Shown: in pieces, positions 1 to 64,000 of the stretch
Numbering within the stretch: position 1 is the stretch's first letter
How the letters are laid out: each line of letters opens with the position of its first letter
Origin: Paramacrobiotus metropolitanus
Taxonomy: Eukaryota > Tardigrada > Eutardigrada > Parachela > Macrobiotidae
DNA: 64,000 nucleotides
Reading direction: 5' to 3'
Assembly (NCBI RefSeq): GCF_019649055.1
Contig: NW_026570266.1
Coordinates: forward strand, 558,001-622,000
The notes under the pieces: generated by a model
Databases searched by the model: none
What the model was told of the DNA's origin: nothing
The model's input: only the letters and a program-made list of their open reading frames with translations
Program-made: the position numbers and the translations under genes

Positions 1-35
1 CACGAGCAAATCTATTTATATTCGCTCATATACGG

Positions 36-185
36 GTGCGTGCTATAAACGCCCATCCTTGTTTCGTTGCGTCGTGACCTAATTTTCGACCATATAGACG
101 GGCCACGGCTATAAACGCCTGCCCTTGTCCGTGCCCTCTGTCTCTATTGTAATCGTGTCGTCATCCAGGTGCGCCTATAAACGGT
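36..185 (+). repeat. Triplicated TATAAACG block
   Basis: Three copies of a CTATAAACG core preceded by GTGC/GCC-like context occur near 47, 110 and 172, about 63 bases apart. The unit is degenerate between the cores. The core resembles a TATA box, so this could be a repeated promoter-like block or simply a decayed minisatellite. A good donor (gacg|gtaagt) follows at about 370, so a 5' untranslated exon between 190 and 370 is possible, but I see no coding sequence attached to it. Confidence 0.4.
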
Positions 186-399
186 CCCTGTTGGTTTAAT
201 TCTTTCAATCAAGCCCTAAACATCTGACGATTTTAATGATGAATTGTTTGGAAAGTCGCGTAATTAAAAAAAAAAAACTGCTTCATGCTCAATAGCAAAC
301 TTGTGTTCCACCGGTCGAGCTCGCCTGTTGGTAGTCTACCATCATCACTGCTGCACAGTGCTTCTGACGGTAAGTATTTTGTTTATTTTAAAACGTGAA

Positions 400-1890
400 A
401 TTTGTTTTTAAAAAAAAATGTATATTTCGTGCGCATATCGCGGTATTGGAAAAATGGGTGTCCCTTCCTTAGTACGGGTATAACAAAGTTTTTGTTCTGA
501 AGTCATGCATTGTTTGTTGTTCTGATGATATTGGTTTGGACTTAACTCTGGTTAGCGAATAATTTTTTTGTAAAGCAGCAGATTACGACAGTACATTTCT
601 CGACGTGATTTAATCTTTTTGTACTTGTTTCGTTAATTTATATGTCATAGTGTAAAGGCGTAAGTACATCTTTTCAATAATTCAAGAACAGAATCTTAAC
701 AGATAGTACTGCCACTTCCGTAATATTAACAGTATGCATCTTTTGTTATTTCTTGCCACTCTTTTGTTATTTCTTATTATAATTTTATTAGCAGCCAAAC
801 ATGTGTCACATCTTGTCACCTATTTTCCTTTTTTTTAATCTTGGTTTTGCCAGTCGATTATCTTTTTTAGCCGGTCGTACTATTCTCAGCAATTCTGTAT
901 AGCCAGAACAGGGAAGATCATTGCATTCGCTGGATATTCATTTTCCATTTGGCCCGATGAAGCACCTCTTGATTTTATTAGGAAAGTAACTTTGGCCCGA
1001 TTCTCTCCCCGCTCTATCTTTTCTCTTGTACACTCACCAGTTCTCATGTATCCATACATCCCCGTCGCATCACTTCATACAAACAGAGCACAGGTTCTCT
1101 CTTGCCCCTATCATCCTGTCTGCACTGCTGATCCTCATAACTCTGTCTTGCACTCATCACTCGAATTCACCCCATTGTAATGCGCTCGCTTTACGTAGTA
1201 TTGCTCTCGTGCCTTTGTCTCTCCCCATCTCATCCGCATTGTCTTCTTATCTCGCTCCAGTCATTGTCCTTCATGCGTCATTGTCGCAATATTACGCCAT
1301 TGACCGAACTACTATATACTTCATTGACCGAAAGATTGTCGCAAGGTTTATTTTGAAGGTGGCGTTTCTGGAATATTTGATTTGTATTTGCGGCAATTTT
1401 CAACAACTGAATCGTTAAATTAAATTAGCGCGTTATCTGAAAATTATAAAAGCATTTGTAAATATAAGTAGGGTTGCGTCAATGTGCGTTCAAGTTTTTC
1501 AGAACCAGAAGTTTGTAATGATTTTCAACTGGTGTACTGACGTCGTGGACATCGATATTACACTTCCTTTCCCAAGACCATTATGAACCTCGATGTCGCA
1601 TGTCTGCATGGACTAAGTGGTCATTCTTTAACGTCGGATGGATCGTCGGACGGATACAACAATTAACGTCGTACGTGGAACCGGACGGATACAGTAACTA
1701 TCGTCCTACGTGGAACGCTTCGGAATTCGGATCATATTTGCCCTATTTACCTCTTAATTTATTACTAATGTTTTCGAACTAAATCTACGTTTGTACTCCC
1801 AAAAAATCTGATCGTGATTTCTCTAATGTTTTGCAAGCTTTGAATTTTCTTTTGTATATGTTTTTGTTTGTTGTTCCTGAAAACATTCTG
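400..1890. other. AT-rich non-coding stretch
   Basis: No ORF here has plausible exon borders or family resemblance. The open frames at 992-1418 overlap each other and look like chance. The right-hand part (1560-1900) may be the degraded 3' end of a retrotransposon, because it leads into the polypurine tract described next. Confidence 0.4.
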
Positions 1891-1901
1891 TTTTCAGTTT
1901 G

Positions 1902-2220
1902 GTAAGAGGGGAGTGTAACGGGGATTCCTGTCTCATGTATTAGTATGTACGAGTATGTGCTTGGTTGTCCCGCCTCTTGTATTTCCTGTTCCTGTACGAG
2001 CGGTTCTGTATATATAGCGTTGTATTTCCTGTGGTATCTTCAGTCGTTGGGTTAGCAATATTTCGAGCAGTATCAGCCGGTTCCGTTGCCCGTTATAGCT
2101 CATCATCTTGGGCTAAGAGGAAAGGCGAGACGCAGAAGGATGGCGCGTGTCTGGCGTTCATTACCGCGATAAGCTATCGATAAGCTATTTCTTCGCTGCT
2201 ACACACGCGGCTGCATCGGG
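1902..2220 (+). mobile_element. LTR-like fragment (3' end of LTR retrotransposon)
   Basis: A polypurine run (gtaagaggggag) is followed directly by TGTAACGG at 1914, the usual junction between internal region and 3' LTR in Ty3/Gypsy elements. A TATA-like tatatata lies near 2010, inside the proposed LTR. The right end is uncertain, possibly near the ACACA at about 2200. No matching 5' LTR, gag or pol is visible, so this would be a truncated tail. Confidence 0.4.
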
Positions 2221-2912
2221 AAAAGGTAACGTTCATGTCGTCTGGCGCGAGCGCGACGGCAGCTAAAAACGTATGCAGTCCGAGGTTGTCGGTACTGATA
2301 TTTTTGAGGCACTTAATTGTGCCATAGTTGTTGCGTTTTTCCACGGCGAGTTATCGGTACGCTGAACCTTGCTAACACTAGAAGTTTAATGAGGGCGAAG
2401 CATGCAGCGTGAATGCAAAATGTTTTGTGATCTACATACTGTAACCTTACAAGAACACTGGCCGATTGATTTATACAGTATTCAAGTACGAGTACTGCAT
2501 AAATCATACTGACGACTCGACGAGTAGTACGAGTACTGATTGATGTACTGATTTATGCAGTACTCGTATCTACTCGCACATTTACAAAAATCGTGACATT
2601 AGTTTTATGACTGTACTGTTGCAAATCCCAGTTACTAGCAAAACGTTTTGTCTTTAAACGCTGAAGTAAATCAAGACGGCTATGTTCTTACTAAGCAATC
2701 CAGAAATAATCCTGCAGTTATTATTAATTTTACAGACACGGAAGTAACGTCATCGAATGCAGATGCTTTCGCCTGAAGCCGAATAAATTCGGCTGCTCTG
2801 ACACACCGGTATTACATTGTGAAGTTAGGCGCTGTGTCAGCATATTTGGAAGGTTTAAACACAACGGTATTGAATGTTGCGGTTAACATTAGAAGAAAAC
2901 GTATGAGTCAAA

Positions 2913-3570
2913 ATGCAAAGAAACCCTCGCAAAACATCCATACTCTTTTCCCTGATACTCGTGGCAGTCTTGCCCAGAAAAACGTTCAGCTTGGATGATC
3001 CCTTTGCTCGACCAGAAGGTGAGGTGCTATAACATTTTCTTACAGAGTAAATTGCTCTAATAACTCAGAAACTAGAGTAAAAACGTCATAACTGAAACAG
3101 ATTAACCATCGTTTTTATTAGGCGGTTTTCTTTGCAAAAGTTGTAGTACAGAGTACTGACTGCTATTATTAACGAAGTAGTCTCCGTAATTATTGTACTC
3201 TTTGTAGTCTTGCTGCTTGTTGAGCGAGGAAGATGCAAAGACATACCGGAAGTGCGATAAAATCGACTGTCATGCTGAACAGACAACGGCTCTTTCCCCT
3301 GCTACCACGAAAGCTTTCCCGGATAAGCAGGCGCAGTGGGTTGATGCCGTTACGAAAACGTCCACTACAGTAGTCTCAAAATCGCGGAAACGTAAGGCTC
3401 GTTTCCCGACAACGACAACGGTGCCCACGAACACTACTGTGCCGACGTTAACACTGATAGTCCCTGTGGTCCTTCGTGGTATAATCCCAGGCAGTCAACT
3501 GCCTCCCGGCCGGTATCGTGCCAATGTTACTCTGTTTATTGATATCGACACTAGCCAATCAGCCGACTAA
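2913..3570 (+). CDS. Family A small secreted protein, copy 1
   Basis: Function unknown. Exon 1 (2913-3018) encodes a signal peptide starting MQRNPRKTSILF and ends at a gtgagg donor in phase 1. Exon 2 most likely starts at 3233 (aag|AT), which restores the frame and gives DAKTYRKC, matching the same motif in copies 2 and 3. The protein is about 147 aa, with two close cysteines, a Thr/Val-rich middle and a C-terminal YRANVTLFID stretch shared with copy 3. The acceptor at 3233 has a poor polypyrimidine tract. The tag at 3207, equivalent to the one copy 2 uses, would break the frame here, so the exon border is the weak point. An AATAAA lies at 3699. The 5' flank (acagacacggaagta near 2735) is repeated before copy 2. 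Confidence 0.55.
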
Positions 3571-3698
3571 ATTTGTCCTTATTTTTGCCTTGATCTGGTT
3601 TCTAAGAGGAGAAGTACTTTATTGGTATACACCGAGCATCACCTGGTGTCACCATCTCTTTCAAGTCATGACGAAACTCTGTGCCGAATCTGCCGATC

Positions 3699-3704
3699 AA
3701 TAAA
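3699..3704 (+). terminator. Polyadenylation signal AATAAA
   Basis: An AATAAA hexamer lies about 130 bases after the stop of family A copy 1 on the same strand. Confidence 0.5.
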
Positions 3705-4019
3705 GTACAGCGACGAAATATCTACCTACTGTAGCTAGCAAAGCAGCTTTTCAAAATCGATGATCGGTTTATTATTATATATTCAGTATCGTGCATTACA
3801 CGAAGACATTCGACAGTGATGTGGCACTCGTTACCATCTCGTCGACCTTCGAAAACCAAATCGCAAGAATAATAGTAAGAAAATTCGCCAAGTGCCTGAT
3901 ATGTTATATATTTAGCGAATTTACACGAAACTGACTGACTGCATGAAAGTCTTTTCATGGTTGACCAATAGAAGTTTTTGGCGTAGACTACAACTTACTC
4001 AAATATTTTGTACGGTACC

Positions 4020-4180
4020 GACCAGCTAAATAATCGATTTTACCATTTAAACGTGATTCGTGGTGTGGTTCCAAAGGACGGCTTCTTTGGTACCGCATAG
4101 TACCAGTCCATATCAAGACGCACTCGACTGTAAACATGGGACAAAAGCAGCTTGGTATGGACTGGCGGTGCGGCTCCATC
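4020..4180. repeat. Dispersed repeat, copy 1 of 2
   Basis: This block resembles 16575-16745. Shared blocks include an ATCGATTT/CCGATTT stretch, then taccagtccat followed about 50-70 bases on by the partly inverted tggtatggactgg. The facing accagtcc/ggactggt halves suggest a small non-autonomous DNA element. Confidence 0.5.
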
Positions 4181-5324
4181 GTGTACCCATTATGAAAAGT
4201 TAATAGCTACAGCCTTTGTACAGGTACATTTCCGCACAACGGCATAAGCACGAAATGCTTGTGAATTTCAATAAATAACTGAAGCAATCGGTAGACTGAT
4301 ATTCTATTTATGGAACTTCGCGGCACCTATTAAATCCCTTTTATGCGTCTTAAGGGATTTGGCCCGGTACATAGCACCGAATTCAGCTTACTGTAGCAGC
4401 TCACTTCATTCGCTTGTATACGGTAACGACACTTTTCTTACGAGCAGTGTCCGTTTAAATGAGACGGGCTACGGTGTAATGATCATCTTGGATCAAGCGG
4501 GAATTAGATCCTCGGGTATCCAAGCTTCCAAGTGCAGATAAACTAGCAAGTCATATGGATTCTAGCCTGAAACAGACAATCTTTGCGTGAGTTCATACGG
4601 CTCACAGTGATATCTTAGAAATAGTGTACCGCAGTTACTGCAGCTTTTCGTTATACCTTGTAACGGTTGCATGTCGTCAGCGATACTGTCAAGACTTGAA
4701 GGTGGCGGTGATACGTACTGTATCTTTAATGTTAACCCGCCACTGAGGGCGCACATATCCAACTGATTGTTGTCAACAGGACTACAAGGGCATTACAGCT
4801 ATCGCAGTTGCCATGCCAGACGGACAATTGCAACACACAGAGGTCACAGCACATAACAGATTCTCGTGGCATCATGTCCACTACACTTACTATACCACAG
4901 ATACGACGGCTGCACAACATGTCGTTACGACATGTAGATAATATAAAACTGTATATAATAAACGTCGGTATGACATGTAGGTACATGTCATGTCGAAGCC
5001 GATGACAGATGCCACAGACCCCGGCGACGAGAGGTGGGAAGATCTGTCGTACTCAAAACTACGTACAGCGTTGCAGTGCATGTTCGCCATCTTACCATGA
5101 TATGCCTGCCGTATTCAGCCTAATTCAAGTACATTTAATTCTGCTGTAATTATTGGAGTGATACACAGACACGGAAGTACCGGCATCGAATGCAGATAAA
5201 CTGCCTGAAGGCGATCCCACCAAAGCTGCTCTAACAGACGGCTGTGCGTTTTGAACGCTGCATTAATTTAACAGCAAAAGTATTGCTGCACTGCTAATAA
5301 CAAAATTGCTGACAACAATCCACG

Positions 5325-53754: not shown

Positions 53755-54378
53755 TTCTAATGGTAGATCCAGGATGGATCCACAGACGGAGACAGAAACG
53801 GAATCTATCCCGTGGAGTGAGCGACACGATCTGGGTCGCGAGCTATGCGGAAACACAAAACGTCGCACCGTAATCGCTGACTTTTAATAATGTTGAAAGT
53901 CTGGAGAACAGAAATCAACAAGTGATCGGCGCAGCTCGATCGTAAAACGTGGAGCCTATTCAACAGTGTGTAACACTGTGCAGCACGTGCTATGCCGCGC
54001 CCACTAACAGAACACAAGCCAATCAGAAGCGAGACACAACACAGACCGTAATCCAAAGGCGTAGCGCCTAGCGCCACGGGCGTGAACGCTAGTGAAGCCT
54101 CGTCTCACATGCCTCTGGGGGGATGCCGAGCTCCTGTGAGGCTGGACACACTCCCGAATCCACGAAAAGACGGTCGCCGGTGTCTGTGTGCTCGAAAACA
54201 TCAAATTCTCTTATTCCATTTATCATATCACATCAATTCCATAAGGCACAATTCCATTTAACACGATGTGAATAAAGAGATCCAATTACAAAAATACTAT
54301 CATAAAACAGATCAACAGTTATAAGATCAACAAAAGTATTAATCAAATGTAGACTAGGATCCTCCATTTCTGACTCGT

Positions 54379-54863
54379 AAAGGTCACAGGTCCTGTCCAC
54401 CGTTTTCTGCACTTTGGCCCATTCCGCTCTGTTGAGCAATCCTGCGCATCCGTAATGCGACTTCATCACAATCCGCTTGAGAATCAGGTGCGTATCAAGT
54501 ACGACTTAGGAATACTGCTTCATCTTTGGAATATGGTGCGTATCAATTGTACGACTTCAAAATGAGATCCATAAAGGTCATGGAGGACGTCATGTAGACA
54601 AGCGTAGTTCGCTTCCTCCCTGGTAAAGGTCATCCCATATGAAGATGATCCGTTGAGATGTGCGACACGTTCGGGTTAATGGTCCCAAAAGGTCATGCGA
54701 CTTGGTTTTCGATGCGGTGACTCTGTTGGGCGGTAATGATCCCAAAGGTCATCCAACTCTTCAAAACTTCCATTAAAGGTCATGGAGGAACTTAGCCAAT
54801 TTTCTGCGGCTTTCAAGCACTTCGTTGCTTGCCTCCCTGGTAAGACTTTTCGGTTTGACCTTT
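54379..54863. repeat. Left arm of AAAGGTCA-rich block, with short hairpins
   Basis: Six plus-strand AAAGGTCA octamers start at 54379, 54573, 54625, 54688, 54744 and 54775. The first minus-strand copy appears at 54856. Two short hairpins, AAGCG/CGCTT at 54600-54614 and AAGCA/TGCTT at 54815-54830, are each followed by cctccctggtaa, with a compensating pair change. A tandem gaat..ggtgcgtatcaa unit lies at 54480 and 54532. No ORF is convincing here. Confidence 0.6.
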
Positions 54864-54900
54864 GCGTCGCACATCCAACTTCAACATGCCTCGAACGGCC

Positions 54901-55351
54901 AGAGTGCCGGCAAGTTTACCGTAGCATCTCCGATGGGGCCGGCTGGTTACCGCATTGAGTTTACCCCATGAAATTTCCACATTTAATCTTTAGCTCTTGT
55001 TCGCCGCTTGTGGCTAGTATTATTACGAGAAATCCGGCTCGATTACCGTAGTTTTTCTCGTTTCAATTGTAATACTGAATCGCTTAAGGAGAGTGCCGGC
55101 ACAGTTTTACCGTAACAACTCTAATGAGGCCGGCTGGTTGCCGCATTAAGTTAACTTCATCAGTATTCCACCTGTTGTCTTTCTCTTTTTCACCGCTTGT
55201 GGCCCCGTTTCGTATTCAAGAGATCCGGCTTGATTACCGTAGTTTCTCTTGTGCATTTATAACACTGAGTCGCTTAGAGGGGAGAGCCGGCTAACTGCCG
55301 TAGCAACTCCCTTGGGGCCGGCTTTATAAACCGAATCAAATTCAACCCCAA
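54901..55351. repeat. Array of eight covarying hairpins with CCGGC...ACCG loops
   Basis: Two and a half tandem units of about 190 bases contain hairpins at 54901-54929, 54931-54957, 55026-55060, 55090-55122, 55122-55148, 55217-55251, 55280-55311 and 55312-55351. Each loop carries CCGGC and, 4-9 bases later, ACCG or GCCG, which can form an inner CGG/CCG stem. Outer stems differ in sequence but stay paired: CGAGAAA/TTTCTCG becomes CAAGAGA/TCTCTTG; AGAGT/ACTCT corresponds to GGGAG/CTCCC; CGATG/CATTG to TAATG/CATTA. Such compensatory change suggests selection on RNA or single-strand structure. It lies just downstream of the minus-strand ORF cluster, as a 3' untranslated or replication element might. 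Confidence 0.7.
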
Positions 55352-55536
55352 TAGGATTCCACATGATTTCTTTAGGCAATTCTGTGCTATAAACGCTGCA
55401 AACAACAAATACACAAATACAGTTAATATTAATATGTCACATGTCGCGCCCTTTATACAACACCATTTTCATCTTTGTGACGTACCGACAAAGTGCCGTA
55501 GACGTCCTTTTAATAGTGTGATCCTAACGATCAGCA

Positions 55537-56202
55537 CTATTCCATTTCATTTGAATCGCCCTCGCCATCTCTTGGTGGACGCTTCTTAGCGCTTTCGGGT
55601 TGATTACGATCAGATGTCCGGTCAATTGGTTCCGTTGAATCAACTTCCATGACCTTTGCCGGGTCAACTTCGCGCTGGCCACGACCTTTCCCTTGGCGGC
55701 TTCGCTTGACTCTCTCAAGTTGGTGCCGTGCGTCGTTCTCCTCTAACCGCAGTCTCCGGTTATTAGGGTCAGCTGCCAGTCGCCGTTGTACGTCAGCGAG
55801 ATTATCTCGGAGTTGCTGGTTCCGTATACCGCGTCGTCCCATCTGGTTAGGAGCACGTTCTGGACGACGGTCGCTTTTCTTCACCAGGAATTCATCGATG
55901 TAGGTTTCGATGCCGTCCACCGGTTCAACATAGTCGCTTCCTAGAGAATCTTTGATCTTATTGATCCTTTCTTCGACTTGGGATGCATGACGCTGTGTCA
56001 AATTGCCCTTTTCCATCCGTGTCTTACACTTCTTCAGCGCCTTTCGAGCTGTGTGCGCTATGCTGATATGTTCCATTGGTTGTCCCAATTTAGCGACATG
56101 AGCTCGGAAAAATGGTGGAATGTCATCTCTCATGGTATTAGATACCAATTGGTTCTGCGTCTTATAATGCGCCAGTCTCGCAGCGAAGACCTTTTGCCCC
56201 AT
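55537..56202 (-). CDS. Cluster ORF 5: 221-aa helical basic protein
   Basis: Not recognised. The predicted product is charged and largely helical, with an internal coiled-coil-like stretch (NQQLRDNLADVQRRLAADP) and a basic, glycine-rich KGRGQRE segment near the C-terminus, suggesting nucleic-acid or protein-scaffold binding. Its ATG overlaps the end of the preceding ORF by 73 nt in another frame. The upstream ORF's last residues look out of character compared with this frame, so the two may be one protein reached by frameshifting or split by an indel. It lies closest to the hairpin array and is the last gene of the cluster. Confidence 0.55.
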   Translation of the reverse strand: MGQKVFAARLAHYKTQNQLVSNTMRDDIPPFFRAHVAKLGQPMEHISIAHTARKALKKCKTRMEKGNLTQRHASQVEERINKIKDSLGSDYVEPVDGIETYIDEFLVKKSDRRPERAPNQMGRRGIRNQQLRDNLADVQRRLAADPNNRRLRLEENDARHQLERVKRSRQGKGRGQREVDPAKVMEVDSTEPIDRTSDRNQPESAKKRPPRDGEGDSNEME

Positions 56203-56951
56203 TCTTTTGCGGCATAATCTGTAGGATCCACTTGTAATCCTATCGATGCTCTGGCTGCGAGCAACTTAAAGGCTGGATTCACATGTCGTAAAACAAACTG
56301 AGCCACGTATTCTTGTCGTTCGGGATAATCTGCGTAGTAGAATTGTGTCATCCCGATTGGGTCAGTTGTATCCAGCGGTACATCCAATAAACTCAAATCC
56401 ACCAAACTGTGTAGCCCATTCCGTCGGATAGGGAGATAACAGTCCCTTACCGAATCGCGGTGGATAAATAATCGACGGAAAGTTCCTTGTTCCACTCCCT
56501 GTTTAATCTCTCTCGCATAACCCGAGTCGAGTAAGAATTGGCTCAACTGTCTCAGAATTGTGCTGATTTTGTTGGCTTCAACCGAGTCCGATTCGAGTCC
56601 AAAGTATCGACAAATTTCGACCGTTTGCTCATCAATATCAGTCGTATTGTATTCCATATCGATGGTATCCGGTTGTCGGTTATCGAATCTGGAGTTCTGT
56701 CGCTGATCAGCCTGTTGACGATTATCCGGTTCACGTTGACCTTCTAGTTCACGTCGCTCTCCTGACTCAGGCTGCGACGGTTCATTACTCGCCGGTGTAG
56801 CCGGTTGAAGGTCACTATCCAAAATCACATTTCGTCGATGGGTCACGTTTTCTTGAGATGCGGTTTCCATAACTGAACTAGTCCCTTCCATCGCATCGTC
56901 CTCTTGTACGACACTCACAATTGGATCCACTACGTGAACCATTGACTCCAC
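56130..56951 (-). CDS. Cluster ORF 4: 273-aa protein
   Basis: Not recognised. The first 110 residues are acidic, Gln/Asn-rich and probably disordered. From about 110 on it looks folded, with helices around ICRYFGLES, ILRQLSQFLLDSG and a hydrophobic LVDLSLLDVPLD stretch. The ATG overlaps the end of the previous ORF by 22 nt, a tight coupling that is unusual for animal nuclear genes. No introns are needed. Confidence 0.55.
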   Translation of the reverse strand: MESMVHVVDPIVSVVQEDDAMEGTSSVMETASQENVTHRRNVILDSDLQPATPASNEPSQPESGERRELEGQREPDNRQQADQRQNSRFDNRQPDTIDMEYNTTDIDEQTVEICRYFGLESDSVEANKISTILRQLSQFLLDSGYAREIKQGVEQGTFRRLFIHRDSVRDCYLPIRRNGLHSLVDLSLLDVPLDTTDPIGMTQFYYADYPERQEYVAQFVLRHVNPAFKLLAARASIGLQVDPTDYAAKEWGKRSSLRDWRIIRRRTNWYLIP

Positions 56952-58273
56952 CCGCTGATACTTTGGGGTGAATCTTCCCGCTCTGCGCTTGATGACCTTT
57001 TGCTTGCACCCGAGTCAAAGGTCGCATAAAATGCAGCTCTCTGTTGCCAACTTTTATCCTGTGGGTCGGGCGTTCGATTCCGCGTGTGTTCGCGTCTTTT
57101 ATCCCATGACCTTTCAGGTGTTGACATTCTGACATTGCGATTCCGGAATGCAACTCCCATCGGCACCTGATGCCCTTGCTTTTCAGGTTCTGTACGGAAT
57201 GTCTCCGCACGCCGTTTTTCTTCACGTCCTCTCGTCGCCGCCAAAATCTTCGCCGTATCGATTTTCCTTTGAATACTCATTTCTGTAACTTCGTCTCCAT
57301 GGCGCACCCATCCTCTTCCGCCGCGGTAATCTCTATCGCGAGAACGTTCGCGTGACCTTTCGTTGCGGTAGTCACGTGTTCTTTCACGAGAGTGTTCGCG
57401 TGACCTTTCTCTCTGTCGTTCAGAAGTCCGCTCATGTTCTCGTGAATGTCCGCGTGACCTTTCTCTATGCGGAGGCGACCGTGGTCGTATGAAGCCTTCG
57501 TCCCGTTTGAAGCTTCTGAGTGCTTGCAGCACATCGCTTTCGGTTCGGCGAGATTTACGTAATTCATCCATACGTCTTTCCACTTCCTTCTTTATGTATG
57601 GTGCCGGCGCGAACCCGTCTTGCAGTCGTTTCTTCTCCCGCAACAGCGTTTTGAATAACTCGTCTGGCATAGCAGCTGGATCTTTCGTTAACGTTTCGAT
57701 TTGTATGATGAGGGACTGACGTGTCAGCTGCACTTCTTCTTCGTTTAGGCTGGCTGTGGGTCCGGTTGAACTCGACGTACTGGGCAACCCCTCTCGTGCA
57801 GCCTGTTCACTTGCTCTCTTATTTTCCGCATTAATCTTCGCGCGGATTTCGTCTTCCATCTGCTGAGCTCGCATCTTCGCTTGGTCTTCTTCGAACTTCT
57901 TCCGATATGCGTCTGTTTGTGGACATTTCAACGGCTCCAAGGTGTCATCCCAACCAGGTTCATTGTTCCGGATCGCTTCTCGATAACGATCTTCGAATAG
58001 CATTCGCTCTTCTACTGGGATGCTGCCGTAGTTTCTTGCGCTTATGAGATTTCGAAAAACGTCCAAGTTCCCACGTTTGGCTTCCGAGACCCCAACGAGT
58101 GAAACCATATGCGGGTCATCCAGCTTGTGAATACAAGTGTAGCAAGGAAATTTCTTATCAACCTTTTTGTTGTTCCTTCAGCAGTCCGGACACTTTGAAT
58201 TATAGCCCGTAAACTGATCGATGTCTGCCGCCATTCCCGAACGTTTAGGAGTGGCTTGACCTTTTTGTGCCAT
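56930..58273 (-). CDS. Cluster ORF 3: RS-rich protein with N-terminal zinc-ribbon-like motif and in-frame TGA
   Basis: The frame opens with ATG at 58273, just after a good acceptor-like tttataattgcag. It reads 31 codons ending CPDC, then TGA at 58180-58178. The same frame continues with FPCYTC and runs without further stops to 56930; the first ATG after the TGA is at 58108 (392 aa). The two CxxC pairs straddling the TGA form a typical zinc-ribbon spacing. Residues about 205-270 of the 392-aa part are RS/ER repeats (RERSREHSRER), as in splicing factors, preceded by a long Lys/Glu-rich helix. Either the 392-aa ORF is translated alone, the TGA is read through, or the copy is mutated. Confidence 0.6.
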
Positions 58274-58613
58274 CTTTCTTCTTCAATCTGCAATTATAAA
58301 ACAATCCGTCATATTAACCTCTCCACGTTAATCCTTTCCATTCCTATCCGTTATCAAGGCTTTCTATCATTTTTACGCCTATTCCGTTACTGAGCTGAGA
58401 CTTTCCTAGCTCCTGCTGCCTTTTCTATCACTGTAACGTGGTGACCTTTCTCACGTTATCAGCGCTCTCTGACTACTGTGACCTTTTCTATTAGTCCTAG
58501 TACTGCTTTCAGGTGACCTTTCATAACACTTTTTCTCTTTCGTTTTAAACTATTTTATGCTTTTTCTGTAATATGCAGGGTTCATTACTCGCTGCATATT
58601 ACAATCGATTAGT

Positions 58614-61600
58614 TCATTCGGATTCTTTCGTCGGTGGTTTATACGGCTTGAAATCAATTCGGCCATCTGGATTAATATGGGGCACGTTTTCTGCGATCAG
58701 GGCTTCGACGGCATTCTTAATCCACTCCTTATCGCTTTCCATGTTCAGCTCTCCCAATTCATAAGTGACGGCCATGAAGTTCGAAAGGTCATTCCGTGAC
58801 GCTCCATTGGTACCACCGATGGCGTCCAAGGCCACGTCTGTGATGGCTATCTTCCAGGCCTCCAGTTCCATTTTCAGTCTGGGTGTTCGTTCCTGACCCT
58901 GTTTCGGAAGGTAGTAGACAACTTTGTTGTCCTTGTTGTACTTACATCCCAGCTTTCCTTCTTTATATGCTCGTTTCAAGGCTCGTTCGGTCATATTAAG
59001 TGACGACCTTCCATTCGTATTCATTGCCACTTGTCTTTTCAGGTCTGTACCAAGCATTTCTTTTTCTCGAATGATCTGGAGCGCAGCCTGGACTTCGTTC
59101 CATGTACGATTATTCACGTCCAATGCTGGTCCTAGCGTGTAATCTGTAGCCTCCTTTGCTGGTGTACCGCTACTTTTCTGGGAGGATGCCGAGTCCGTTG
59201 GGTCAGCTGTCGCTGTTTCGTCAATCCTCAGCTTTGCCAATGATCCTGATGATGACCCCGCTGATTTTGGTTCGGTTATCTTCTTCTCCTCTTGCGGCAA
59301 AGTCTCTTGACCTTTTAGATCGCCAGCCGACTTCGATCGTTCCTTCTCAAAGGCCTCCTTTAATGGTATGAACAGTGATTTGTGAAACACCTGTCGCGCC
59401 GAATACGCTACAGCTTCTGCCGCTGCCTTATCCATCGGGAGCATGACCTTTTCTTTCTCCCGTTTGTCTGAAGTCTCATGACCTTTCGGTTGAACTTCTG
59501 CGGTAGTTCCAGATGTCTTTTGACCTTTCGACTGTTCGTCTTTTTCTGTCGCAGGTCCAGAAGGAGCCGTTATTGTAGTATCGTCATCACTTCCCGATTC
59601 CGAGTCCATTGGTCCTTTTTTTCTCGACACTTTCGGGGCTTGTGATTTCAGCCTCGCCGCTTCTTCTTCGGCCGTTTTCTGTGCAATCTGATTCAATATC
59701 GGAGTTGACGGGTCTCCGCTTAATGGAACTATGACCTTTTCCATATCCTGACTGTCAGACATATGACAGTGGATCTGCCTCTCCGGTGGTATCAAACCAA
59801 CTCTCGTGTATCGAATTGGGTGGCCTTTATTTGCGTTTGTTGTAGAAAGGACATTCTGTTTAATCAGTCTCGGCAGTACACGCTCAGTTGCCGTATCGAT
59901 TTCTTTTATCATTCCGTTTCCATCGTTCCAAACTGCGTTGATGTATTGGCTGATCCGGTGACTCGTTGACCCTAACGGGCTTGTCATCCCTGCGATTGCC
60001 CTTTCTACTCGCATTGGGACGGCTTCGTTCGGAGTTGTCAACGCTTTATCCGAACTGGCTGGTCTGAACAACTTGGCCTCATACGAAAAACTCGGGTGCT
60101 TCTGGATAAGTTTTCCTGCGTTCCGCGCGAATTCCAATACGACGTCGAACTTTTGTTTAGTGAAGCTACGACGCTGTTTCTTCAAATATGTCTTCAGGCC
60201 CGCTTTGAATTTCGATGTCACCGATGCTGTTCTTATCCGTGTGAAATTTTTCTCCGCTCCGTTATACGCGTTAATGATTTCATCGACCGTGGTCAAGTTA
60301 TCATTATCTGGACCGTCAAATTCTTCATCCGAGGTGAAGTCCAGCTCGCTCTCTCCATCTGGTTCAGTATAATTAACCAGCGCCAATGCATCGATTTTCG
60401 TAACTGTCTTGCCCTTTCCTTTGGTCTTAACGGGTTCGCTCTTTGCTTTTTTTCCTTTGTCCAGGGCCTCCGCTAGGCTTCTTGGTTCTGTGGTCCTTGA
60501 CCGGGTTGTCTTCGAATCCGTATGTGACCTCGCACTGACCGTCGAAGTGCTTGGGAGGCTCACTTCCGATGCTTCTGATTCACGGGACGTCTCCCGCTTC
60601 ACTTTTTCACGAATTTGTTTATCCTTGCGCTCTTTTGGCGTGGATGCCGAAATAACAATGGGGATAACTTGTTTCACCGCTATGACCTTTCCTTTGGGTT
60701 TTGGCGAGTCAGGCTCAGTGACCTTTGATGTAGCCGACTGGATAACTTTCCTTGAAGTTGTAGGTGTCGACGACCTTTCTTGAGCCTCACCAACTGATTC
60801 GTCCAGTATCTCAACATCATGAGGCGCTGGTTCATCTTTTTTCTTTAACCCTTCCTTTTTCTTCTTCCCGGTGCTTGTGCTATCGCTTTCATCACCGCTC
60901 TTTTTCTTCTTATCTTCTTCTTCCCTTCGTTTTTTCAGGAAATCACCTTTCTTAACCGTTTTTTCGCGGTTCATAGCTTCTTCCAATTTGGGTGCATCCC
61001 TCGGCTTGGCTTTTGAGGGCTTTACTTTTGAGGGCTTTTTATGCTTGTCGGCCTTTTCTTCGTCTGAGCCTTCTTCTTCCTCAGCTGAGTCCTCATCTTC
61101 CGACTCTGGTTCATCGTCACCGGGTGGATTACAATGGGCACAGTTAGGTTCATCACACTGAAGGTGATCATGACTTCCTTGGGCGATCTCAAGTACTCTT
61201 TGTAATGAACGTCTGGCGCCTCCAATTTCTTCGACTTCTGTGACTGGAGTCCCTTCCATTTCTCCGGCTCCACCTTCCTGTGCCGGGGGCTGAATTTCCA
61301 AATGCGCTGTCTCTTTCAGCTGTCCCTGTGAAGCGACCTCCCACAAAGGGTTCTTCTTAGCGTCGTAAAATACCGTTTTGTACGATCCGTCTTCCATTCG
61401 TCTTGTGAGTCGGAAATGTGCTTCGTCGATCTCCGCTCGATGCCGCATCATGCTGATCAGTGTGCTCGCTTGAACCACGGCATCTGTTCGGTCACTTTCA
61501 GGTATCAGATCCCATAGCTGCTCAATGGCTGCCTGATTCGCATTTCGTTCGCTCTCTTCTGATACATCCCATGGGGCATACGGAATCGGATCTCCTGTTA

Positions 61601-63614
61601 CTGGGTCAACTATCACTGCCGTAATAGTCTCCACTACTTCTCCGTTGCCGGCGAAAAGTCTGAGGGTAACCTTTCTGCTTGTCGCCTCTGTATATCTTGG
61701 GATCGACTCATAATCATCTGACGATCGTTTCTTAGGGTCTGGATCCGCCGTCGGTTTTGAGCGAGTTCTCTCTTTGGTCAACAATTTGCCATCCGTTGTG
61801 TATGTATATGCCAAGTGGTCCTCATTTGTGCCCACTTTAATACGGATCCATGCATCTTCTTCAGTCGCAACTTTAGATACCACGTGTTTCAGCATCTGAA
61901 TGAGAACTCTTGGGTTGTGACGTTCTTCTGGGGGAATAAATTGTAGCGCCTCGTTGACTACCGTTTTTGACTCTTCCCCAATGGCATCCTTAACTGACCT
62001 ATCCGCGAGGGGATTATACGAGTCGATCTCTTTATTCGTTTTCTTATCGACTATACGTGCCGTAACCTTTCGTTCCTTATGGTCTTCCCCAGTGTACTTG
62101 GCCGTGAAACTTCTACACTTCGGGAATCGAATCTGACCTCCTGTTCCAGCCGGTGTGGGTGGCGCACTCTTTCTACCCACTGGGAATGGGCCTTGTGGCT
62201 TTGCCGGCTCAGCTGGTGTTGCTTTACCTGACGTGGCCTTCTTCGTTCGCTGCCCTTTCTTGTCAGTTTCTTTTGGGCTTATCGTCGGTGATCGTACTCT
62301 TTTTCCACTTTTCGCTGTCCCGCTAGACGGTTCCGTAACCGAACTGGTCCGTCCTCGTGTTGATCCTGCAGTCGAGCTGGCCCGTGATCTTTCTGCTCGT
62401 TCAGTTAACTCGGCATCAATCTTTCTCTTTGTTGCCAACAGGTCCTCATCCGTCATTTCATCGACCGGGGCGTCCCTTTCCGCTATTGGTTTGGATGGTC
62501 CCGCGACGCTGGTAGTCGGCGTCTGTCTTGTTTCTGGGAACACCTTGAGATATCTAAGGATCTTTTCGACAGTCTCCGGCCACCTTCTACCTTTTATTGT
62601 CGGATGGTATTGCCACATCGATGCAACTTGGATTGCGTATTCCTTGCGCTTTGCTTCAACCTGTTTCGTCTTGTCTTTCATGGCAATGTGGCATGGTTTG
62701 ATAACAGCTTCCAAGCTGATTAACTTTCCATACCATGCGTGTTCGTCTTCAACTCGCATGTGGATTCTATAAAGGTCACGGCATTTCCGATTGAAGTCGC
62801 GAATGGCTTCTAAGTCGGCTTCCGTCAGTTTTTCCTTTTTATCCACTATTAAATTCAGGTTCGGGTCATCATCTCTCAAATCCAACGGAAGCTTCGGTGC
62901 GTATTCATGTATTGAAGGTTCACCTGGGGGCGTAAGCCGTAAACCATCTGGTCCAGTCTGATCCAAATTGGGACCCAGTGACGGTAAGATACCTCTCGGT
63001 CGCCTTCCTCCTCTGTGTGGCGAATTACGATGAGGGCGCTGCGCTCCAAGTTGCTGCGGTGTTCTCATGCGAGGCGCTCCGATGTCTGACAGTGACAAGC
63101 CTCCCGTCTCCGGAAAAGGCGGTAATATCGGAGATGACCTTTGTGACTGTACCGGAGTCGCTAGCATTCCGCCGAATCCTCCGTGTCCCGTAAATCGGCT
63201 CGGTGTAGTCTGTTGTGGTGGCGGCATCAACATTCTTGCCGGTCCCATTATCACCTGTGAGGGTCCCGCTGGTGGGGTATACGATCCCGGATACGGTTGA
63301 TAGGGAGCGCCCGTTGCTTGTCCCGGGTACTGGGTTCCGGCAGGTGAGCCGTGGTGCACCCAGTTAACCGTGTCCTGATAATTCGTCTGCTGTCCTGGAT
63401 CGTGATACACGTAATACCCTGGACTGCCGTAGTAGCCTCCTTGAACTGTTCCGGGTTCATTCTGGGCCGTTCCCACTGACGACGTCGACCCTTCACCGTA
63501 TGAGGTATCGTAACCATATTCCCCTTCCATTCTTATTGGTGTCGATGTCTTTAGTGGGTTTCCAATTATTTCCGAATCGGAATTATCGGAATTTTGCCGT
63601 CCCAATCTTTTCAT
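58614..63614 (-). CDS. Cluster ORF 2: 1666-aa protein with internal domain repeat
   Basis: Not recognised as a whole. The order is: Gly/Tyr/Pro-rich disordered N-terminus (1-250), a helical segment (about 255-375), a Ser/Thr/Lys-rich linker, two copies of a domain of about 110 residues (roughly 510-625 and 640-765; each has an (A)xIVDxxTxxxI start, an IPxxxR middle and a final strand pair), a CxxxxCxxC cluster near 820, a long acidic then lysine-rich tract (830-1000), another helical domain (about 1125-1300), a charged linker and a C-terminal region (about 1510-1650). The end (GASRNDLSNFM, WIKNAVEALIAENV, DGRIDF) resembles a linker-histone-like winged helix. It is a 5-kb single exon, unlike the intron-rich EML gene. 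Nuclear or DNA/RNA-associated function is only inferred. Confidence 0.7.
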   Translation of the reverse strand: MKRLGRQNSDNSDSEIIGNPLKTSTPIRMEGEYGYDTSYGEGSTSSVGTAQNEPGTVQGGYYGSPGYYVYHDPGQQTNYQDTVNWVHHGSPAGTQYPGQATGAPYQPYPGSYTPPAGPSQVIMGPARMLMPPPQQTTPSRFTGHGGFGGMLATPVQSQRSSPILPPFPETGGLSLSDIGAPRMRTPQQLGAQRPHRNSPHRGGRRPRGILPSLGPNLDQTGPDGLRLTPPGEPSIHEYAPKLPLDLRDDDPNLNLIVDKKEKLTEADLEAIRDFNRKCRDLYRIHMRVEDEHAWYGKLISLEAVIKPCHIAMKDKTKQVEAKRKEYAIQVASMWQYHPTIKGRRWPETVEKILRYLKVFPETRQTPTTSVAGPSKPIAERDAPVDEMTDEDLLATKRKIDAELTERAERSRASSTAGSTRGRTSSVTEPSSGTAKSGKRVRSPTISPKETDKKGQRTKKATSGKATPAEPAKPQGPFPVGRKSAPPTPAGTGGQIRFPKCRSFTAKYTGEDHKERKVTARIVDKKTNKEIDSYNPLADRSVKDAIGEESKTVVNEALQFIPPEERHNPRVLIQMLKHVVSKVATEEDAWIRIKVGTNEDHLAYTYTTDGKLLTKERTRSKPTADPDPKKRSSDDYESIPRYTEATSRKVTLRLFAGNGEVVETITAVIVDPVTGDPIPYAPWDVSEESERNANQAAIEQLWDLIPESDRTDAVVQASTLISMMRHRAEIDEAHFRLTRRMEDGSYKTVFYDAKKNPLWEVASQGQLKETAHLEIQPPAQEGGAGEMEGTPVTEVEEIGGARRSLQRVLEIAQGSHDHLQCDEPNCAHCNPPGDDEPESEDEDSAEEEEGSDEEKADKHKKPSKVKPSKAKPRDAPKLEEAMNREKTVKKGDFLKKRREEEDKKKKSGDESDSTSTGKKKKEGLKKKDEPAPHDVEILDESVGEAQERSSTPTTSRKVIQSATSKVTEPDSPKPKGKVIAVKQVIPIVISASTPKERKDKQIREKVKRETSRESEASEVSLPSTSTVSARSHTDSKTTRSRTTEPRSLAEALDKGKKAKSEPVKTKGKGKTVTKIDALALVNYTEPDGESELDFTSDEEFDGPDNDNLTTVDEIINAYNGAEKNFTRIRTASVTSKFKAGLKTYLKKQRRSFTKQKFDVVLEFARNAGKLIQKHPSFSYEAKLFRPASSDKALTTPNEAVPMRVERAIAGMTSPLGSTSHRISQYINAVWNDGNGMIKEIDTATERVLPRLIKQNVLSTTNANKGHPIRYTRVGLIPPERQIHCHMSDSQDMEKVIVPLSGDPSTPILNQIAQKTAEEEAARLKSQAPKVSRKKGPMDSESGSDDDTTITAPSGPATEKDEQSKGQKTSGTTAEVQPKGHETSDKREKEKVMLPMDKAAAEAVAYSARQVFHKSLFIPLKEAFEKERSKSAGDLKGQETLPQEEKKITEPKSAGSSSGSLAKLRIDETATADPTDSASSQKSSGTPAKEATDYTLGPALDVNNRTWNEVQAALQIIREKEMLGTDLKRQVAMNTNGRSSLNMTERALKRAYKEGKLGCKYNKDNKVVYYLPKQGQERTPRLKMELEAWKIAITDVALDAIGGTNGASRNDLSNFMAVTYELGELNMESDKEWIKNAVEALIAENVPHINPDGRIDFKPYKPPTKESE

Positions 63615-63742
63615 TAACTGTGCTTACCTTCTATAAAGTGAAACAATAAAGGTTAACTTTTTGCACGGTGATGACCTTTCTTTTACACCTTCCCAACTCC
63701 TATTTTTATTGCCGAAAATTTCCTTAATCATATTTATGTGGG

Positions 63743-64000
63743 TTATTTGTTTTCGCGTCCTTTAGTTATCCGATCAAGAAGTTCTTTTTCGGCTGCATCC
63801 TCAGGTTCGCCTTTCTGTGTTAACAGTTCCGTAGGAGTTGGTTTCTTCTTCCTCTGTTTGACCTTTCGCTCATTGATTGCTTTCGCTATATCGCGGCCCA
63901 ATTGTTCAGCTTTTGATTTGACCGCCTCTATTTCCTCTTTCCGCTTTTCTATGAGGTCATTCTCATTGCCGGTAGCAGCACGTGGTTCGAAAAAATTCGG
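63743..64000 (-). CDS. Cluster ORF 1: C-terminal part, runs off the window
   Basis: An open frame of 86 codons from the window edge to TAA at 63743-63745, with no start inside the window. The residues are strongly charged and helical (DLIEKRKEEIEAV, INERKVKQRKKK). It ends 128 bases before the ATG of the 1666-aa ORF, and an AAAGGTCA octamer lies in that gap. The spacing and composition match the rest of the cluster. Confidence 0.55.
   Translation of the reverse strand, partial: PNFFEPRAATGNENDLIEKRKEEIEAVKSKAEQLGRDIAKAINERKVKQRKKKPTPTELLTQKGEPEDAAEKELLDRITKGRENK

Follow-up and report, generated by a model that had tools for sequence, protein, structure and literature searches.

A conserved array of tandem RNA hairpins downstream of the last open reading frame in a giant Ty3/gypsy-type retrotransposon of Paramacrobiotus metropolitanus

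How does an LTR retrotransposon mark its own RNA? To our knowledge, such self-marking is poorly known beyond a few model organisms. The question is raised by a 64,000-nucleotide stretch of the genome of the tardigrade Paramacrobiotus metropolitanus (hereafter the window, C46:558001-622000; the genome searched comprised 169.8 Mb), in which eight tandem hairpins had been predicted from the sequence. All eight were found, at positions 54900-55351 and on the minus strand. Which element carries them, whether selection acts on their structure and what they may do for the RNA are the questions addressed here.

The hairpins belong to a 24.8-kb element (C46:611756-636569, with an internal region of ~24.1 kb), which covers positions 53756-64000 of the window, locus L009 and positions 1-4569 of locus L010. 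The element boundary at position 53756 belongs to a 354-bp direct repeat whose identical second copy lies 24.8 kb away, and CTGT, the target-site duplication, is present on the outer flank of both LTRs. Pfam searches, with the pieces read as they stand, gave the minus-strand domain order aspartic protease, reverse transcriptase (RT), RNase H and integrase, a frame change separating RT from RNase H in the window's copy. The primer-binding site, TGGTAGCAGAGC, adjoins the 5' LTR and is a 12-nt match to the 3' end of a genomic tRNA-Met gene. On the basis of (i) the LTRs and the target duplication, (ii) the order of the domains and (iii) the tRNA-Met primer-binding site, the host element is a Ty3/gypsy-type LTR retrotransposon with a giant internal region. 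Judging from its identical LTRs, this insertion is recent. The element is dispersed, as all of the 40 loci scored (116 candidates) match it at 92-100% identity. Two copies, L013 (near 6810) and L016 (near 5129), carry internal deletions of 4.7 and 5.8 kb, respectively, that run through the extra open reading frames (ORFs) and retain the array. Amplified deletion derivatives were considered as proof of a cis role and rejected, the L016 junction being unique (1 of 40 loci scored, 159 candidates).

Four extra ORFs lie between the integrase and the 3' UTR (Table 1), and Pfam returned no match above cut-off for any of these four (1666, 392, 273 and 221 aa). All 11 matches obtained for the 1666-aa ORF come from P. 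metropolitanus (7987 candidates scored). Its C-terminus weakly resembles a linker histone (E 0.006, under the Pfam cut-off).

As predicted, the array is located 3' of the ORF cluster: on the sense strand it follows the last ORF and precedes the 3' LTR, with ~185 nt separating the last stop codon from the first hairpin in the window's family. Because the RNA of the element corresponds to the minus strand, the hairpins have to be read on that strand, where their order is P1-Q1-R1-S-P2-Q2-R2-S-P3-Q3. The tandem arrangement thus stands, but the units are unequal: three hairpin types, together with a short motif S, form a unit of ~190 nt (P-Q-R plus S) that is repeated ~2.4 times. The P, Q and R outer stems have 5-7 bp, each type with its own sequence, and the four pairs of arms quoted in the original prediction are those of R2, R1, Q2 and Q1. 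All types share a common, almost invariant head, in which the inner stem, CGG(Y)/(G)CCG, is capped by an A-rich loop and rests on a small internal loop with mostly CUA on one side and G opposite. What had been described as a conserved loop motif is indeed conserved, but is mostly this inner stem, in which CGG pairs with CCG. P hairpins have a 5' spacer of 11-12 nt, and Q abuts P without a gap. When each hairpin was folded singly, the common inner stem was seen in 8 of the 8; P3 alone folds no better than chance (27/200 shuffles fold equally well). A ninth hairpin, of the Q type, is present in the 5' UTR, with the same head on an unrelated 7-bp stem (CTACTGT/ACAGTAG) and a single fold of the same form, and motif S also occurs twice in the 5' UTR (L010 4081-4094 and 3874-3887).

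Table 1. Positions, within the window, of the hairpin array and of the neighbouring features of the host element
Feature	Position	Strand	Remarks
3' LTR, 354 bp	53756..54109	-	100% identical copy at C46:636216-636569
Possible polypurine tract, purine-rich/C-rich	54110..54128	-	by eye; adjoins 3' LTR
Hairpin Q3	54900..54932	-	outer stem CGGAG/CTCTG; folding z -3.6
Hairpin P3	54933..54969	-	outer stem ATGGGG/CCCCAT; folding z -1.1
Motif S, copy 2, CCACAAGCGGCGAA	55000..55013	-	
Hairpin R2	55026..55060	-	outer stem CGAGAAA/TTTCTCG; folding z -3.3
Hairpin Q2	55090..55122	-	outer stem AGAGT/ACTCT; folding z -1.8
Hairpin P2	55123..55161	-	GATGAAG/CCTCATT, one mismatch in the window's copy; folding z -1.7
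Motif S, copy 1, CCACAAGCGGTGAA	55189..55202	-	may form a small CC/GG hairpin
Hairpin R1	55217..55251	-	outer stem CAAGAGA/TCTCTTG; folding z -4.4
Hairpin Q1	55280..55311	-	outer stem GGGAG/CTCCC; folding z -2.2
Hairpin P1	55312..55351	-	outer stem TTGGGG/CCCCAA; folding z -1.9
Last ORF before the array, 221 aa	55537..56202	-	strong purifying selection
ORF, 273 aa	56130..56951	-	no Pfam match
ORF, 392 aa, RS-rich stretch	56930..58108	-	no Pfam match
ORF, 1666 aa	58614..63614	-	homologues found in this species only

The choice of strand bears on what is selected. Folding of the whole array gave a weak excess of stability for the sense strand (z -1.71, 4/100 shuffles as good) and none for the plus strand (z -0.29, 41/100). 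An A-C cell on the sense strand is a G-U cell on the opposite one; the sense strand has 180 G-U cells (79 of them at a single position) versus 27 A-C cells (16 of them at the weakly paired outermost position). This preponderance of G-U over A-C, together with the folding excess seen only in the sense orientation, indicates that selection probably acts on the element's sense RNA.

To what extent is the array constrained? In 16 copies drawn from the window's family and a sister family, the number of substitutions per column was 0.065 for the inner stems, 0.30 for the outer stems and 0.71 for the unpaired hairpin positions, with 0.78 for the linkers, 0.73 for the interval between the stop codon and the array and 0.74 for the downstream UTR. 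The corresponding values for the last ORF were 0.38 at first, 0.24 at second and 2.06 at third codon positions. The stems thus evolve 7 to 30 times more slowly than third codon positions and at about the rate of positions 1 and 2, which contradicts a random minisatellite without conserved stems; they are also more constrained than their own linkers (Mann-Whitney p = 6e-7). As the linkers and the remaining 3' UTR are constrained too (0.74-0.78 versus 2.06), the hairpins may be part of a larger element.

Pairing was compared with tree-based nulls in two data sets. The first comprised 49 arrays (40 from the window's family and 9 from the sister family), aligned without regard to structure and compared with a rate-weighted tree null (240 replicates). 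Paired columns had 0.32 substitutions per column versus 1.17 elsewhere; 99.1% of the cells were paired, versus 95.6% (sd 1.3) in the null (0/240), and pair-breaking changes amounted to 18.75 versus 28.0 (3/240). Double changes (0.5 versus 0.17, reached by 40/240) and pair-keeping changes (29.5 versus 27.7, 89/240) were not outstanding. The second comprised 111 distinct Q/R-type hairpins, a set that was chosen and aligned by the covariance model described below and hence leans towards structure; alignment A3 holds model matches only (150 of 154 with E up to 0.05), with 50 sources from fetched loci. Among these 111 hairpins, 87.9% of the cells were paired versus 65.5% (sd 5.5) in the tree null (0/600), double compensatory changes fell on 5 branches versus 0.9 (1/600), and 48 pair-keeping changes were counted versus 23 (sd 5.5; 0/600). 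Broken pairs (32.5 versus 38.9, 17% of replicates as low) did not differ clearly, and restored pairs equalled the null (19.8 versus 19.8). An R-scape-style G-test (our own script) on the same hairpins gave none of 13 pairs at E < 0.05, the best being E = 0.14. In a shuffle test, the number of pair types was not above chance (reached by 145/500 shuffles). In the nine-sequence training set, 6 of the 13 pairs had changed on both sides. For the P stems, 110 of 120 cells pair in 20 sequences when the spacer length is fitted for best pairing, with GC/AT and TA/AT/CG exchanges. Taken together, these results support selection on pairing in aggregate, as had been proposed, but not significant covariation at any single pair: the covariation test on which the proposal was to stand or fall gave a mixed answer, and classical pair-by-pair covariation is not established.

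We wondered how widely the array is distributed. It is present in 40 of 40 scored copies of the window's family (116 candidates) and in 9 of the 10 fetched 3' ends of the sister family, whose 1666-aa ORF shows 75-77% identity; L059 has no array. Over the 49 arrays the eight positions are kept, with few losses, and some sister-family copies have a P1-like sequence at the P2 position. A covariance model and a genome search, both advised by the original prediction, extended the distribution. The model was built from Q and R hairpins, P hairpins being left out; it recovers 5 of the 8 hairpins of the window (E 4.7e-11 to 8e-9, these five or near-identical sequences having trained it) and misses the three P hairpins. 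The motif CTACGGYAN{2,6}GCCGG has 493 matches in the genome versus 55 for the reversed pattern. Model matches were found in 9 of the 11 loci taken from the first 100 of these 493; the other two, L076 and L077, were set aside, having no model match and resembling, by eye, the coding sequence of another element. All 20 further loci, chosen by DNA similarity to the new families, have at least one model match (E up to 0.05).

In these distant families the head itself is retained and its number spans 2 to 11. Counted strictly, with one regular expression and over stretches of unequal length, there are 2 heads in L073-L075 and L096-L099, 3 in L072, L086, L088-L090 and L092-L095, 3-6 in L071 and L079-L084, and 11 in L085; L087 and L091 have 1, their other heads being degenerate by eye. 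By eye, the distance from the last stop codon to the first hairpin is ~15-25 nt in the short arrays. The 5'-UTR head is present in families 1 and 2 (L010, L067 and L068), and the single distant-family 5' end fetched, L100, gave no model match; a 5' copy as a general rule was therefore abandoned. Three hairpins with a shared TTCAGCGAA tip and differing stems were noticed by eye in the 5' UTR at L010 3900-4050, with similar ones in L067 and L068; in their place, the 5' end of L100 has, by eye, a repeated CTCCTGTGGAG.

What might such an array do? Our leading reading, held tentatively and at somewhat less than even confidence, is that the array acts as a multivalent cis-acting protein-docking RNA element for the export and the particle assembly of the element's RNA, by analogy with retroviral elements. 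All heads would bind the same RNA-binding protein, supplied by either the host or the element, and the full-length RNA, once occupied by several molecules of that protein, would be marked for nuclear export and for assembly into a particle. Given its position and its repeated layout, the array would act in the manner of the Rous sarcoma virus (RSV) direct repeats or of the Mason-Pfizer monkey virus (MPMV) constitutive transport element. The head remains nearly constant while the stems change and the number of heads varies across families, and an identical repeated head on drifting stems is what is expected of a protein-binding hairpin in many copies. The position between the last ORF and the 3' LTR, the sense orientation and the changing copy number argue for a role in RNA handling. 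Moreover, an RNA with several ORFs downstream of pol probably needs subgenomic mRNAs, and this would entail a need to export the unspliced RNA. We rank this docked-protein role in export and assembly first, Gag packaging second and mRNA stability or translation third.

Gag packaging, in which the heads would be high-affinity Gag sites serving encapsidation and assembly rather than export, we regard as unlikely. It would suit the ORF upstream of pol, which has CQYCMYGNHQTQGC, by eye zinc-knuckle-like (CX2CX4HX4C), and the head in the 5' UTR of families 1 and 2, but Pfam gave no Gag domain in the ORFs searched, the 5' copy is absent from the one distant family checked, and a signal in the 3' UTR would sit in spliced RNAs too. 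The array might instead be a stability or translation element of the last ORF's mRNA, its post-stop hairpins protecting the RNA or promoting translation. The closeness of the short arrays to the last stop codon would fit this role, which the ~185-nt interval in the window's family and the occurrence of the same head in a 5' UTR make rather improbable.

A neutral minisatellite, for which plant Ogre elements with their hypervariable 3' UTR repeats offer a precedent (PMC7004042), would account for a ~190-nt tandem repeat whose copy number differs among families; it is very unlikely, as free variation is contradicted by stem conservation 7-30 times that of third codon positions and pairing exceeds the tree nulls. 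Dimerisation by kissing loops through the palindrome GCCGGC, for which kissing contacts had been suggested, has a slimmer probability still: GCCGGC is found in 64 of the 111 hairpins, but 35 carry GCCGGA, the form seen in the R hairpins, which lack the palindrome, and 12 neither, and its GCCG is paired within the inner stem, in columns that hardly ever change. A 3' UTR that binds the primer tRNA, as in Ty1/Ty3, can be dismissed almost entirely as an aid to reverse transcription here: the primer is known from the 12-nt match to tRNA-Met, but no word of at least 8 nt in the 3' UTR is complementary to this tRNA and the complementary 7-mers number two, versus about 5 in shuffles.

A second repeated feature of the element is an octamer, AAAGGTCA, which is enriched within it roughly 80-fold or more over the first-order expectation, with about 100 copies (window 54379-63866; L009; L010 431-3336). 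Sense and antisense octamers number 65 and 14 in the body, 1 and 6 in the 3' UTR, and 0 and 13 in the 5' UTR. The array had been placed at the point where this polarity flips; the flip lies slightly beyond it, as a sense octamer at 54856-54863 is still on the 3'-LTR side. The 41 sense octamers within the counted ORFs use all three reading frames (10, 19 and 12), which argues that the octamer is kept at the nucleotide level. Since the body carries AAAGGUCA and both UTRs mostly the complement of it, the UTR octamers could base-pair with those of the body. A general tie between octamer and array does not hold. Of the stretches fetched from other or more distant copies (29 in all, of 0.2-1 kb), 22 lack the octamer in both orientations and 7 contain it (L078, L079, L084, L085, L090, L092 and L094); it is also absent from the 8-kb 5' part of one distant element. 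Since most distant-family stretches have hairpins without the octamer, the hairpins are independent of it. We give a low probability to a two-part RNA-handling system, not described before, in which modular arrays of 2-11 identical docking heads at the end of the coding region and octamer-mediated pairing of UTRs and body would together compact and carry the ~25-kb RNA. It was also observed that the 3' UTR at 54110-54860 evolves slowly (0.74 versus 2.06 at third codon positions) and contains repeated phrases such as CCAGGGAGG.

A docking role in export and assembly has to be set against known systems. A search of the whole window against Rfam gave no match above the gathering threshold, and when 54000-55600 was searched at lax settings a single weak snoRNA match appeared, outside the array; the RNA motif is thus absent from Rfam. 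The literature search returned no paper pairing Paramacrobiotus with a retrotransposon, and the genus goes unmentioned in the main text of a paper on the curation of tardigrade repeats (PMC11071193). The statement that no such element has been described is accordingly upheld by the Rfam and literature searches for this layout, but 3' UTR tandem repeats and pre-LTR hairpin elements are known kinds. Structured cis-acting RNAs of LTR retroelements, the kind to which the array belongs, are known; the head motif and the modular copy number are new. Four points give it interest: (i) giant elements handle RNAs far above the usual length, (ii) the module is compact and testable, combining a single head with many stems and coming in a natural range of 2-11 copies within one genome, (iii) its motif adds to those in Rfam, and (iv) tandem repeats in the 3' UTR of a retrotransposon are not necessarily junk that varies freely.

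The closest parallels are viral. The RSV direct repeats, which flank src, are described as binding NXF1 and DDX5, and the MPMV transport element as binding NXF1-NXT1 (PMC3856414, PMC7551171). As far as these accounts go, the tardigrade array is, like them, a structured cis RNA close to the 3' end of its LTR element, and it has the place and orientation expected of an export element, downstream of the last ORF and upstream of the 3' LTR in the sense RNA. Unlike them, it has another sequence and another head, in 2-11 short tandem hairpins, and an export role would be ascribed to it by analogy. Among retrotransposons, the 3' UTR tandem repeats of plant Tat/Ogre elements, described as hypervariable and as a source of satellites (PMC7004042), likewise form a short tandem array downstream of a Ty3/gypsy coding region; in contrast to them, the tardigrade array is strongly conserved and structured. 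In size class and in having extra ORFs, the host element resembles the giant Ty3/gypsy elements Ogre of plants and Burro of planarians, the internal region of the latter being reported to reach 25 kb (PMC6431247), but it differs from both by its short 354-bp LTRs, its own ORFs and its RNA array. Finally, Cer1 of C. elegans, like the element described here an LTR element of an ecdysozoan, is presented as needing an export device for its unspliced genomic RNA, the CERV protein (PMC10309623); CERV, however, is a protein, whereas the tardigrade feature is an RNA.
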